NCBI RefSeq assembly: GCF_003324485.1
Contig: NZ_QODK01000001.1
Coordinates: 806,001 to 870,000, forward strand
DNA: 64,000 nt
Origin: Cohaesibacter intestini
Lineage (GTDB): Bacteria > Pseudomonadota > Alphaproteobacteria > Rhizobiales > Cohaesibacteraceae
Direction of reading: 5' to 3'
Shown here: positions 36,656 through 64,000 of the stretch, one piece after another
How positions within the stretch are numbered: position 1 is the stretch's first letter
Layout: each line of letters begins with the position of its first letter
Translations under genes and position numbers: made by a program
The notes under the pieces: model-generated
What the model saw: only the letters and a program-made list of their open reading frames with translations
What the model was told of the DNA's origin: nothing
Databases searched by the model: none

Positions 36656-36810
36656 GATCAAAATCTCGAATATCAAAAAAATAGAAATTGCGACTCAATG
36701 AAACCACACTTTTCCAGTGCGGCCTAATGCCGATGTAAGGATATATCATTAGTTTAATGAAATTCTTTCGCTATCGGAAAAATTTTATCTTTATACTTTG
36801 CAGATGAAAC

Positions 36811-37014
36811 CAGATTCTCTGTTTAGGGCTTGTTAACTTTTATTATCCACAGAGTCTTCACAGATGGGAGAGAAGCAAAAGACGCAGAGACCAGAGTCTT
36901 TCTCGCACTGAAACCATTCACTATTTGCAGCACCAGAGTCATCGAACCGGGTGACAAGAGCGATAACTTTGCGTGCAGAGTCGAGGCAGAGTCAACGGAA
37001 TCGCGCCCAGAGTC
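36811..37014. repeat. Helically phased CAGAGTC array beside a perfect DnaA box
   Basis: The 445-bp gap 36656-37100 contains CAGAGTC six times, all on the plus strand, starting at 36850, 36892, 36934, 36976, 36987 and 37008. Spacings are 42, 42, 42, 11 and 21 bp, i.e. whole multiples of one 10.5-bp turn. A related CAGATTC starts at 36811. Each holds a GANTC site, the target of the alphaproteobacterial methylase CcrM, and a further GAATC is at 36998. The first copy directly continues a consensus DnaA box, TTATCCACA at 36843-36851. The frame across it uses rare Arg AGA codons and is unlikely to be a gene. Confidence 0.7.
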
Positions 37015-48313: not shown

Positions 48314-48692
48314 ATCAGGTCACTCCCCCAAGCATCCTGCCTTGATCATCCAAGCCGATGGTTCGCAAGCAGTTTGACGCCTATAGTGGCTTTGTTCGAT
48401 CAATCGCAGCCACTCTAGACGCAAGCGCTGCTCTCAATGTTGATTGATCTCAAAACCTATCCCTTTTGCCGCCTTTCGAGCGACCTTGTCTCCCCCTGTG
48501 GCCCTTGCAACAGAGAGTATGAAAAAGCGCGGCGATCCGTCTTTTGCCTGCTCTTGCAGTGCGTCAATTCACTCGCATGGCGCAATTGGCAATAAGTATG
48601 CGTGTTAGTGCGTAACTTATGCGAGGCCGTGAATAGCGAGTGATGATTCACGTGAAATGAGAGGATGAAGTGGCACGCGGCGGCTCAGACAG
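48314..48692. other. 379-bp gap between hisE and coaA
   Basis: No convincing gene. It must hold the coaA promoter and carries a parS-like site at 48644-48659. A 64-codon frame on the minus strand (48457-48651) has no ribosome site and no family resemblance. Confidence 0.5.
48644..48659. other. parS-like ParB-binding site 1
   Basis: TGATTCACGTGAAATG matches 13 of 16 positions of the parS consensus TGTTTCACGTGAAACA, including the whole 10-bp core TTCACGTGAA. It is intergenic and about 15 kb from the putative origin. Identification is by sequence only. Confidence 0.6.
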
Positions 48693-60332: not shown

Positions 60333-60348
60333 CGTTTCACGTGAATCC
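60333..60348. other. parS-like ParB-binding site 2
   Basis: CGTTTCACGTGAATCC matches 13 of 16 positions of the parS consensus and contains GTTTCACGTGAA unbroken. It lies in the 118-bp gap between secB and dnaQ, about 3.4 kb from the putative origin. Confidence 0.62.
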
Positions 60349-60376: not shown

Positions 60377-61123
60377 TCAAGATGATTGTTCACTGTCCTT
60401 GGCCAGCTCGGGCAGATAGTCAGCCCAGAGGCTGTCGCCTTTGATTTCTTGCAAAAAGGCCAAATGTGCCTGACGGTCCGCTTCGCTCAAACGGCCGGGC
60501 AGGGGATTCGGCCGGGGACGGGCAGCAACTCTCTGACGACGCCCCCACTGCCCCTCATCACCGCTGCCCTGATCCTCTTCCTCTCCGGCCAGCAGCAGGC
60601 TTTTCTGGCGGCCACCGATCAGTTCGAGATAGACATCGGCAAGGATCTCACTATCGAGCAACGCGCCGTGGAGAGATCGTTTGGTGTTGTCGATGCCGAA
60701 CCGGTTGCAAAGGGCATCGAGGCTGTTGGGTCCTGCGGGAAATTTTGTCCGCGCCATGGCCAGAGTATCGCGAACCAGATTGTCATCAATCTGCGGAAAA
60801 CCAGCCTTTTCCAGTTCCCAGTTGAGAAATTTGACGTCGAACTGGGCATTATGCGCGATGATCACCGTGTCCTTGATGAAATCATGGAAGGCTTGCGCCA
60901 CTTCGGCAAATTTCGGTTTGTCAGAGAGAAACTCCTCCGACAGGCCATGCACTTTGAAGGCCCCTTCGGGCATGTCTCGTTCGGGATTGATATAGACGTG
61001 AAAGTTGTTTTCCGTCGGCAGGTGATTGATCAGCTCGACACAGCCAATTTCCACCACCCGGTCGCCGGTGAAGGGATCAAGCCCTGTGGTTTCGGTATCG
61101 AACACGATCTCTCTGAGTGCCAT
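60377..61123 (-). CDS. dnaQ: DNA polymerase III epsilon subunit (proofreading exonuclease)
   Basis: A 248-residue DEDDh exonuclease. Exo I is FDTETTG at 8-14 with Asp9 and Glu11, Exo II HNAQFDVKFLN, Exo III HGALLDSEILADVYLEL. The C-terminal tail after residue 170 is polar and should bind the alpha subunit. First in the alphaproteobacterial cluster dnaQ-coaE-aroE-maf at its downstream end; genes run maf to dnaQ on the minus strand. Confidence 0.97.
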   Translation of the reverse strand: MALREIVFDTETTGLDPFTGDRVVEIGCVELINHLPTENNFHVYINPERDMPEGAFKVHGLSEEFLSDKPKFAEVAQAFHDFIKDTVIIAHNAQFDVKFLNWELEKAGFPQIDDNLVRDTLAMARTKFPAGPNSLDALCNRFGIDNTKRSLHGALLDSEILADVYLELIGGRQKSLLLAGEEEDQGSGDEGQWGRRQRVAARPRPNPLPGRLSEADRQAHLAFLQEIKGDSLWADYLPELAKDSEQSS

Positions 61124-61172: not shown

Positions 61173-61775
61173 TCATTCACCGGTGAGAGAAAAGCGCTGA
61201 CGGATGACGTCGAGCACCCTGTCCACCTGTTCTGCGGCGTCTTCAAGGCTGGTGCCGGTGTCGATGACATAATCGGCCCGCTGGCGCTTGTCTGCATCAG
61301 GCATTTGCCGCGCCTTGATGGCTTCGAATTTCTCTTCGCTCATGCCCGGTCGGGCCAAAACACGCGCGCGCTGCACCTTTTCAGGTGCCGAGACCACGAC
61401 AATCACATCGGCGCGGGCCTCACCACCGGTTTCAAACAGCAGGGGAATATCGAGCACCACCATCTGGGCACCGCTCGCCTTTGCGGCTTGGAAAAAGGCG
61501 CGTTCCTCTTCATGAACCAACGGGTGAATGATCGCTTCAAGTCTGGCCATGGCCTCGCTATTGCCGATTACCTGTTTGGAAAGCGCTGCGCGATCCACCC
61601 CGTCCGGGCCAGTGGTGCCGGGAAAGGTCGCCTCGATCAGAGGCGCGGCCCGGCCTTGATAGAGGCGATGGACCGTCGCGTCCGCATCATGCAAGGGGCA
61701 GCCACGCTCGACAAACATTTGCCCCGTTGTTGATTTCCCCATGCCGATGGAACCGGTCAGGCCGATCTTGATCAT
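61173..61775 (-). CDS. coaE: Dephospho-CoA kinase
   Basis: A 200-residue P-loop kinase for the last step of CoA synthesis. The P loop GSIGMGKST is at 8-16; [24 protein letters not shown] and [17 protein letters not shown] are family motifs. It lies 3 bp after aroE and 49 bp before dnaQ. Together with coaA the window holds the first and last CoA enzymes. Confidence 0.97.
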
Positions 61776-61778
61776 CGC

Positions 61779-62639
61779 TCAAGCCTCCAGAATGCGCGTG
61801 CGCAACCCATCCGTTACCGCAGGACGCGTTCCGAACCAGTGTTCAAAGCCCGGCACCGCCTGATGCAGCAGCATGCCAAGTCCATCCACGACCCGATTGC
61901 CACGGATACTGGCTACAGCCAGCAGGTCGGTTTCCAGCGGATTATAGATGATATCGGTGACCAGAGCGGAAGTAGGCAGCGCATCGAGATCAATTTCAAG
62001 GGCAGGTTGGCCAACCATGCCAAGGGAGGACGTGTTGACCAGCAGATCCTTGCCAACGAGGGCTGGATCAAGATTGTCCCAATCTTCAACCATCACCCGG
62101 TCTGCAAAACCGAGCGCAGCAAATAGCTGTTGCAACTCTTCGGCGCGGGCGCGGGTTCGATTGACCAGCGTGACTTTTTTGAAATTGCGGTTGATCAGAC
62201 CATCAATGATCGGGCGGGCTGCACCACCGGCCCCAATCACCAGGGCATGAGCGCCCTGTTTCGCATCCCAGCCAGGGGCGCGTTGGTCAAGATTGGCGAG
62301 AAATCCATAGCCGTCGGTATTGTCTGCATGGAGTTTGTCGCCTTCAAACCACAGGGTATTGGCTGCTCCAAGGCGTTTTGCCGTGTCGTGAATGACATCG
62401 ACATGGGCCAGCACCGCCTGTTTGTGGGGAATGGTGACATTGCCGCCGACAAACGTCTGGTCGCGTAGCGACCCGACGAATTTTTCCAGATCTTGCGGCT
62501 CGACTGCAATCTTCTCATAGGAACCGGCCAATCCATGCTGCTTCAACCAGTGACCATGGATCAGCGGCGATTTGGACTGTTCGATGGGCCAGCCAATGAC
62601 GAATGCCTTTGGTGCTTTTGGGACTTCAGACTTGGTCAT
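61779..62639 (-). CDS. aroE: Shikimate dehydrogenase
   Basis: A 286-residue NADPH enzyme reducing 3-dehydroshikimate to shikimate. Substrate motif GWPIEQSKSPLIHGHWL, catalytic Lys in GGNVTIPHKQAVL, ADNTDGYGFLANL, and the NADP loop ALVIGAGGAARPIIDGL followed by NRTRARAEEL. It starts 3 bp after the maf stop. Confidence 0.97.
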   Translation of the reverse strand: MTKSEVPKAPKAFVIGWPIEQSKSPLIHGHWLKQHGLAGSYEKIAVEPQDLEKFVGSLRDQTFVGGNVTIPHKQAVLAHVDVIHDTAKRLGAANTLWFEGDKLHADNTDGYGFLANLDQRAPGWDAKQGAHALVIGAGGAARPIIDGLINRNFKKVTLVNRTRARAEELQQLFAALGFADRVMVEDWDNLDPALVGKDLLVNTSSLGMVGQPALEIDLDALPTSALVTDIIYNPLETDLLAVASIRGNRVVDGLGMLLHQAVPGFEHWFGTRPAVTDGLRTRILEA

Positions 62640-62642
62640 TGA

Positions 62643-63242
62643 TCAAAACTCCAAACCGTGGTCGCGGCGCAAGTAGGAAAGAAGCGGCAGCAGCGGCAGG
62701 CCCAGAATGGTGAAATAGTCGCCTTCGATTTTCTCAAACAATTGCACACCCAAACCTTCCAGTTGATAACAGCCAACACTGGCACGGACCTGTTCCCCAA
62801 CGCGGGCCATGTAACGGCCGACCTCTTCGGGACCAAGTGGCCGCATGGTGAGAGTGGCAGTGGAGACATGGCGCCACAAAGTTTCCCCATCCTTTACACA
62901 AGCCACCGCCGAATGGAGCTGGTGATTTTTACCTGCCATTTCAAGCAATTGGGCACGGGCTGCGGCTTCATTTTCCGGTTTGTTAAAGCGCTTGTCGCCA
63001 AAGCCGAGTGTCTGATCGGCACCGATGATCAAGACTCCGGGATTGCGATCTGAAACATCCATCGCCTTCACCTCTGCCAACAACTCGGCAATGTCTTGGG
63101 GGCTGCCTCCAGCCTTGATAAGGGGCTGTTCGGCGGCTCGTTCATCAATTTCCGCGGTTTGGCACGCAAAAGACAGTCCGGCATTGGAAAGCAAGGCGGC
63201 GCGCGACTGGCTCTTGGATGCTAGAATCAGGGGTGTCATCAT
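62643..63242 (-). CDS. maf: Maf-family nucleotide pyrophosphatase (septum-formation inhibitor-like)
   Basis: A 199-residue HAM1-fold enzyme that removes modified nucleotides; overexpression of Maf blocks septation in some bacteria. Motifs are LILASKSQSRAALLSNAGLSF, IDERAAEQP and VLIIGADQTLGFGDKRFNKP. AAGGGA precedes the ATG pair at 63242/63239. It begins the minus-strand operon maf-aroE-coaE-dnaQ right beside the putative origin. Confidence 0.95.
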   Translation of the reverse strand: MMTPLILASKSQSRAALLSNAGLSFACQTAEIDERAAEQPLIKAGGSPQDIAELLAEVKAMDVSDRNPGVLIIGADQTLGFGDKRFNKPENEAAARAQLLEMAGKNHQLHSAVACVKDGETLWRHVSTATLTMRPLGPEEVGRYMARVGEQVRASVGCYQLEGLGVQLFEKIEGDYFTILGLPLLPLLSYLRRDHGLEF

Positions 63243-64000
63243 CAGGGTCCCTTTGAAGAAATGCGGTTTGAGACCTTTTAGAGCAACTCAGCCAGAAACG
63301 AAACTGTTGATCAGGGCTGGACTCGGGGATTTTCTCAAAGATTCAAAAGGATCAATTTGTTTCAAAATCGAACGATTGGCTGGTTATCAACGCAACGAAA
63401 ATTAGTGGTTGGTTAAGAGCGATTCTCTCAAGAATCTCCTTGCCAGCCTTTGTCGAAATCCCCCTTTTTGCGTCTCTGGACCACTTATGCCCAAGGTCAA
63501 AATTTTCTGGATAGGGGTTTCTACAATCCGACTTGAAGGCCGATTTCTGTCATTTTCTTGTCGTGATTGGCTGCTAATAAGCGCATGAGTGGATGATTCT
63601 TCCCCAAGCCAGATGGGCCTCAGGGGACAATGTTGGGTGAATCTGGCGCTTTAAGATTTTCTTCACTTTTCCCAAAGCGCCATCCCCAATTGCTTTTGCG
63701 CGGAGACGTATTTGTTAACCATGTATTAACCTAGGTTAACAAACAATTAATACACAAAGAGCGCAAAATTCGTTACCACTTAATCCTCGCATAATTCAGT
63801 TTTGACATTGATCCAGCTTTCTGGATTCCTTGATCAAAATCGACTTTTCCCCGCTGTTCAATTTGCAAGTGGAGGAGTCTATACCGAAATAGGAGGGGGT
63901 TTTCCAAGCGATCTGTGACTCATTTGTGGGTGAAAAAGATATCCCGCAATCCACTGCCAATAAGAAGAAACAGATCTTAGAATCTAAGAATCTTTTTTAT
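63243..64000. other. Putative chromosomal replication origin (Cori-like), cut by the window end
   Basis: A 758-bp gene-free, AT-rich stretch after maf. It contains two exact TTAA-N7-TTAA sites (63715-63729 and 63736-63750), the CtrA-binding form, sharing the palindrome TTAACCTAGGTTAA (63726-63739). Eleven GANTC (CcrM) sites start at 63320, 63340, 63421, 63432, 63595, 63639, 63824, 63875, 63917, 63980 and 63988. DnaA-box-like words are TTATCAACG (63384), TAATACACA (63748) and the complement of TCACCCACA (63925). In Caulobacter the origin lies beside a maf-aroE-coaE-dnaQ cluster. Alternatively this is only a CtrA-controlled promoter region of a gene beyond the edge. Confidence 0.6.
63715..63750. 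promoter_or_regulatory. Tandem CtrA-type boxes
   Basis: TTAA-CCATGTA-TTAA and TTAA-CAAACAA-TTAA lie six bases apart; the middle two half-sites also form a 14-bp perfect palindrome. CtrA represses initiation by covering such sites at the Caulobacter origin. The DnaA-like TAATACACA overlaps the last half-site. Confidence 0.65.

Follow-up and report, generated by a model that had tools for sequence, protein, structure and literature searches.

The replication origins of Caulobacter crescentus and Rickettsia lie between hemE and a COG1806 gene (PMC1914354; this and the other papers cited here are used through their available excerpts). In Caulobacter, the sites of CtrA and DnaA overlap or adjoin, and steric exclusion is the simplest mechanism put forward in the accessible parts of PMC4468827 and PMC4285127. 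As far as its excerpt goes, a 2015 review records CtrA sites as unseen in origins beyond Caulobacter species, except possibly Rickettsia prowazekii (PMC4468827). The excerpt on Sinorhizobium meliloti describes an origin that has no CtrA sites and is not bound by CtrA (PMC4433202), and the CtrA of Brucella abortus is reported, in the available part of that paper, as not binding the origin (PMC2877005). CtrA-type sites have been predicted in the origins of Wolbachia and relatives (PMC1914354), and the CtrA of Hyphomonas neptunium binds next to the chromosomal origin according to ChIP-seq (PMC7200025, in excerpt), so CtrA boxes outside Caulobacter are not new as such.

The window analysed here is the whole stretch of 64,000 nucleotides, C1:806001-870000 of a 4.79-Mb assembly in 27 contigs, and the contig that carries it is 1.28 Mb long. 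Cohaesibacter is placed in Hyphomicrobiales, Alphaproteobacteria. Among the best 80 of 596 HemE loci, four Cohaesibacter records stand out as the closest named relatives, with best-segment identities of 81-87%, and the remaining 76 share 58-65%. Positions 63243-64000 of the window, together with about 40 bases beyond its edge, are very probably the chromosomal oriC of this Cohaesibacter, with a proposed scheme in which CtrA would gate DnaA and ParB would serve segregation. The genes to the left and the region itself are arranged as follows.

60377..61123, minus strand: putative dnaQ, named from its sequence
61173..61775, minus strand: putative coaE, likewise named from its sequence
61779..62639, minus strand: aroE
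62643..63242, minus strand: maf, the left border gene, starting at 63242
63243..64000, no strand: oriC region, 758 of about 795 bp from maf to the first hemE ATG, assigned by gene order, the GC-skew step and blocks conserved in 18 same-genus genomes
63959..64000, no strand: AT-rich stretch, 24% GC over 63959-64003 (3 bases past the edge), a candidate unwinding element

An earlier reading of the letters alone (the sequence-only reading) had described 758 bp without a gene, and indeed no frame of at least 60 aa lies fully within 63243-64000; one frame antisense to maf reaches into the intergenic region up to 63405. The first ATG of hemE is 38 bases beyond the window edge (L002:2038), which gives an intergenic region of 795 bp, and the alignment points to a GTG 21 bases later, common to the genus, as a possible start of translation. 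HemE matches TIGR01464 with 389.6 bits, and the hemE border of an alphaproteobacterial oriC of Caulobacter type is thus present. The same reading had proposed to extend the contig rightwards; it runs on into hemE, hemJ and rho, followed by mnmE, mnmG, rsmG, parA (ParA-type ATPase) and parB (ParB-family protein). It had left open whether this was the chromosomal origin or the left half of one; the window covers nearly the whole intergenic region, more than a left half. The origin region has 42.6% GC against 56.0% for the window, with AT above average as in alphaproteobacterial origins.

The PF03618 (COG1806) kinase has no match in the whole assembly, and the left border here is the next gene, maf. 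Within the genus, a kinase gene of PF03618 type lies between the origin and maf in 7 of 18 genomes and is gone from that place in 11 (L086-L092, L176-L182), and the conserved blocks beside hemE are kept in both kinase-less groups. A FastTree of four proteins sets these two groups apart with weak supports at the deciding nodes (0.223 and 0.698). On this tree the kinase was likely lost twice in the genus, and a single loss was set aside on the same weakly supported split. A kinase remnant in the extra sequence on the maf side was also rejected, since tblastn with seven kinase proteins gave an unconvincing best E of 0.28 in this genome and 0.013 in the relative G013. The COG1806 kinase is a marker for finding origins and not a part of origin function; the region is assigned by position, skew and words.

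GC skew, which the sequence-only reading had named as a check, changes at the locus in the own contig and in a single-contig relative (G012; 4,625,566 bp). Along the 1.28-Mb contig we sampled 20 stretches of 20 kb and picked the break point from the data: the mean is 0.0126 for the 13 stretches on the left and 0.0785 for the 7 that begin with the one bearing the origin, and the two sets of values do not overlap. For the relative (40 stretches, sampling step 116 kb), the optimal fit with two segments places its breaks at the hemE-containing stretch (2,659,701) and at 346,918, half a chromosome apart. Some details count against an origin here: the skew left of the locus is slightly positive rather than negative, and over a contiguous 102 kb the best break in skew and the minimum after detrending are both found at 873 kb, some 3 kb to the right of the intergenic region.

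To describe the footprint, regions upstream of hemE were aligned in 18 genomes, whose genus membership rests on the label 'same genus'. The words found in the region are listed below.

63595..63606, plus strand: GATTCTTCCCCA, containing the sole GANTC site of the region (GATTC at 63595) kept in 18 of 18 genomes
63715..63729, plus strand: predicted CtrA box 1, TTAACCATGTATTAA, perfect in 3 of 18 and with at most one mismatch in 18 of 18
63736..63750, plus strand: predicted CtrA box 2, TTAACAAACAATTAA, perfect in 14 of 18 and with at most one mismatch in 18 of 18
63748..63756, plus strand: DnaA-box-like word TAATACACA, overlapping CtrA box 2
63845..63852, plus strand: TTKTCCCC block, kept in 18 of 18, a possible weak DnaA site
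63914..63922, minus strand: diverged DnaA-like word, TGTGACTCA on the plus strand, TGTGGG in 16 of 18 genomes, this genome and G012 being the exceptions
63925..63933, minus strand: DnaA-like word, TGTGGGTGA on the plus strand, TGTGGG in 17 of 18
63943..63954, plus strand: CCC[AG]C[AT]ATCCAC block, DnaA-like, ATCCAC in 18 of 18

Two exact TTAA-N7-TTAA boxes had been reported before, and they are found at 63715-63729 and 63736-63750, with only one further exact match elsewhere in the 64-kb window. In dinucleotide shuffles of the 795 bp, two such boxes never occurred (0 of 2000; mean 0.03). The position of box 1 holds TAACACTCTGTT in 11 of the 18 genomes, which is one mismatch from the Caulobacter IHF sequence; a comparable closeness was reached by 1 of 360 shuffled sequences, a figure to be read with the relatedness of the 18 genomes in mind. 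This form of the box is lost in the window genome, where the IHF consensus WATCAN5WTR has no match. Outside the genus, two of 31 genomes of the order have a word within one mismatch of the Caulobacter IHF sequence (shuffles: 2 of 620), and among 73 named loci there are none within one mismatch and one within two.

The spacer of box 2 depends on the clade (CAAACAR or TGAAATG) and the half-sites are unchanged in most genomes, with a one-base change of the second half-site in four. A spacer that varies between half-sites that stay is the pattern expected of a binding site. The DnaA-like word which had been noted over the second CtrA box is present and kept in 18 of 18 genomes: with its preceding base, the position of TAATACACA reads T[TA]AAT[AG]CACA in all of them. 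The earlier mention of DnaA-box-like words in general holds for seven words with two mismatches to TTATCCACA and fails for consensus boxes, and this is the weakest part of the case. Neither TTATCCACA nor TTATNCACA matches in the origin region, which contains no word within one mismatch of TTATCCACA, and DnaA boxes defined by consensus were dropped as candidates. Across the genus, the TGTGGG and ATCCAC words adjoin the AT-rich end.

Eleven GANTC sites were counted again, as the sequence-only reading had it; dinucleotide shuffles of the 795 bp contain 4.2 on average, and 3 of 2000 reach eleven. Their significance as a set is not borne out, as only 1 of the 11 is kept in all 18 genomes. The site at 63824 is kept at the aligned position in 8 of 18, and of the other nine, eight are shared with the sister genome G012 only and one is private to the window genome. 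A second GANTC-dense stretch lies at 36692-37010 of the window, with four sites exactly 42 bp apart (36852, 36894, 36936 and 36978), which suggests a short tandem repeat. The existence of this second place means that density alone is no marker of an origin. In the 20 kb around the origin, GANTC is about twice as frequent as the mean of other stretches, both here (59 against 28; G000:C1:862984-882983, L169) and in G012 (67 against a mean of 29; L139). An excess over the whole 20 kb was rejected: it comes mostly from the origin (11) and parS (6), and the other 42 sites in this genome are within the range of its other stretches (18-43).

We also searched the whole assembly for parS with a 14-base word. 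All seven matches with at most one mismatch lie at C1:866334-880865, around the origin (869243-870037) and within 12 kb. Six of them read GTTTCACGTGAATC, with the CcrM site GATTC as one arm, and the seventh is the palindrome. Their places are the following.

60334..60347, plus strand: parS GTTTCACGTGAATC, with GANTC in one arm
C1:874720-880865 (L002 6720-12865), right of the window: six further parS sites

A further nine words, at two mismatches, lie scattered and are probably due to chance, because a reversed parS control yields 28 words when up to two mismatches are allowed (and 1 when at most one is). In the 20 kb around hemE, each of the 18 genomes has 3 to 7 parS-like words with GANTC and one or two palindromes, and GATTC never fills both arms of a parS word; most of these sites are shared through common descent, hence non-independent. 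The window genome also has one parS-like word without the CACGTG core, probably by chance. At 48645-48658 of the window, about 15 kb from the origin region, there is a degenerate parS-like word, GATTCACGTGAAAT, with a GANTC arm, which may be chance as well.

To see how far CtrA boxes extend in Hyphomicrobiales, two sets were summarized. The named loci are the best 80 of 596 without three whose left border is undefined (L035, L060, L066) and without the four Cohaesibacter records, which leaves 73, by title mostly Rhizobiaceae and Phyllobacteriaceae. A perfect CtrA box occurs in 7 of them (0.72 boxes expected from base shuffles) and is missing from 66, and their GANTC sites number 312, where base composition predicts 113. 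For the other set, 43 genomes from outside Cohaesibacter were sampled, 32 were read and one (G054) was dropped for its undefined border, the 11 others having been left aside for reasons that include a lacking hemE match or a hemE at the end of a contig; of the resulting 31, two belong to the same family and 29 to other families. Upstream of hemE, 13 of these 31 have a perfect CtrA box (shuffle mean 0.50, maximum 3 in 500), at positions from -73 to -402 relative to hemE, and GANTC totals 104 against a shuffle mean of 60. Shuffling overstates this contrast, since a perfect box is also present in 8 of 138 AT-rich 400-bp windows elsewhere in two sampled Cohaesibacter genomes. The overlapping DnaA-like word, searched with a strict pattern, was found in 1 of the 80 named loci, a Cohaesibacter, and directly after a CtrA box in none of the 13 boxes of other genomes of the order. 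From the above, our counts suggest that CtrA boxes at origins are more widespread in Hyphomicrobiales than the literature cited here implies, and the S. meliloti arrangement, which is without boxes, may be a loss. One of the loci, L021, is titled Bacillus subtilis SK6B4 and carries a hemE-kinase-maf locus like that of Hyphomicrobiales, so that the record is probably mislabelled.

The genome encodes CtrA (428 bits, cut-off 350) and a CcrM-type methyltransferase with RAMA domain (65.8 bits, cut-off 35.2), and genes for DnaA, ParA and ParB are present. A short frame (139 aa) with a match to the DnaA C-terminal domain (56 bits) was seen apart from dnaA, at G000:C3:612235-612423 (L115). The region is an alphaproteobacterial oriC, and we infer that it is repressed by CtrA; the sequence-only reading of a chromosomal origin agrees with the gene order, the skew, and the box pair and overlapping word kept in the genus. 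In the scheme that we propose, where every binding event, the repression and the unwinding are inferred, DnaA would bind the TGTGGG and ATCCAC words, weak boxes next to hemE, as well as the word that overlaps CtrA box 2, and would open the AT-rich end (63959-64003). At the box pair (63715-63750), phosphorylated CtrA would exclude DnaA from the overlapping word and so silence the origin in cells not meant to replicate. Once active CtrA is lost the origin would be free, and ParB on the parS sites within 12 kb would then move the copied origin. Competition between DnaA and CtrA is described for Caulobacter (PMC4468827, PMC4285127) and is predicted for the overlap here.

Other explanations can be given for the same locus. 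It may be only the divergent promoter region of hemE and maf, with the origin elsewhere, for example at dnaA (C1:700350), about 169 kb to the left of the region, as many bacteria start replication beside dnaA. We regard this as very improbable. A lasting skew step near 700 kb is absent (samples 663,834, 730,218 and 796,601 give 0.005, 0.042 and 0.013) and the step on the own contig arrives at the sample starting 862,984, so that an origin at dnaA is rejected on GC skew; moreover, the parS words cluster at the hemE/maf region, and the C. crescentus origin is placed between hemE and COG1806 in the excerpt of PMC1914354. An assembly in 27 contigs might raise the suspicion that this origin serves a secondary replicon and not the main chromosome, but that is scarcely credible when G012 has the locus at the skew step of its one 4.63-Mb contig and the neighbours are housekeeping genes.

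A more serious alternative accepts the region as the origin and takes the CtrA boxes as ordinary promoter operators of hemE or maf, with no role in replication. Perfect boxes are not rare in AT-rich DNA (the 8 of 138 windows of 400 bp), and in other genomes of the order the place of the box ranges from -73 to -402 relative to hemE. However, all 18 genomes have a DnaA-like word that overlaps box 2, the boxes persist whether the left gene is the kinase (7 genomes) or maf (11), and the corresponding intergenic region contains a box in 13 of the 31 other genomes, where shuffles give 0.50 on average. We therefore consider operators without a replication role unlikely, with enough weight to be kept in mind, and retain the CtrA-gated origin as the preferred reading.

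The one-arm form of parS raises a separate question. A survey of 299 genomes of the phylum found it in 19 of the 38 that belong to this order (the window genome among them), in 7 of 213 from other classes, and in 0 of 48 from other orders of the class, the last count having no yardstick for parS content because the palindrome was uncounted in this sample. A control with G or C at the same place gave 4 of 38, 4 of 213 and 2 of 48, respectively. Of 121 genomes of the order, 50 carry the one-arm form, at 122 sites, and 106 the palindrome, and other one-mismatch parS forms stand beside the palindrome in some families, for example with arms GTTCC and GCTTC in G047. A literature search, which left subscription papers mostly uncovered, did not find the one-arm letters or three related spellings, and the form may be in print; in part of the literature on parS and GANTC, GANTC is described near repABC parS sites, not inside chromosomal parS.

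One speculative idea is that the Hyphomicrobiales centromere reads the replication state. The passing fork would leave a one-arm parS hemimethylated until CcrM acts, which would tie ParB loading or the choice of arm to replication, and the palindromic parS (one near the origin, two in some genomes), which CcrM could not methylate, would be the constant anchor. Alternatively, the ParB of this order merely tolerates A at that place of parS, and the pattern is explained without methylation. CcrM is common in other alphaproteobacteria too, and the one-arm form is absent from those sampled, which speaks for a tolerant ParB. Since such a ParB would suffice and the form is absent from the other alphaproteobacterial orders sampled, we consider the methylation idea unlikely. 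If methylation does change ParB binding, DNA methylation would be tied to chromosome segregation.

In summary, the origin is placed here for Cohaesibacter with a footprint in 18 genomes, and the literature matches listed include no origin paper on the genus. Among the systems with which it can be compared, S. meliloti and Brucella are of the same order, and Hyphomonas neptunium belongs to another. The Brucella/Ochrobactrum loci (L023, L024, L040) are hemE-kinase intergenic regions, and the chromosomal origin of S. meliloti presumably matches in position. In contrast to this Cohaesibacter, the S. meliloti origin is without CtrA sites (PMC4433202) and the B. abortus CtrA is non-binding (PMC2877005), as far as the excerpts of both papers tell. 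H. neptunium likewise has CtrA at the chromosomal origin, there by ChIP-seq (PMC7200025, in excerpt) and here as predicted boxes only. The predicted origins of Rickettsia, Ehrlichia and Wolbachia share the hemE border, with CtrA- and DnaA-type sites among the prediction criteria; they differ in a border of COG1806 or COG1253 and measure 383-620 bp among the hemE-bordered rows listed in the part of PMC1914354 available.

The nearest counterpart for comparison is Cori of Caulobacter crescentus. Unlike Cori, this Cohaesibacter lacks the COG1806 kinase gene, has no word within one mismatch of TTATCCACA, has lost the IHF-like form of box 1, and carries two perfect boxes against the five CtrA sites reported for Cori in the excerpt of PMC1914354. 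Like Cori, it has hemE on one side, TTAA-N7-TTAA boxes, a DnaA-type word over a CtrA box and an AT-rich stretch (PMC1914354, PMC4285127 and PMC4468827, in the parts accessible), and 11 of the 18 same-genus genomes have a box 1 that differs at a single base from the Caulobacter IHF sequence, which overlaps a CtrA site there (PMC4285127, in excerpt).
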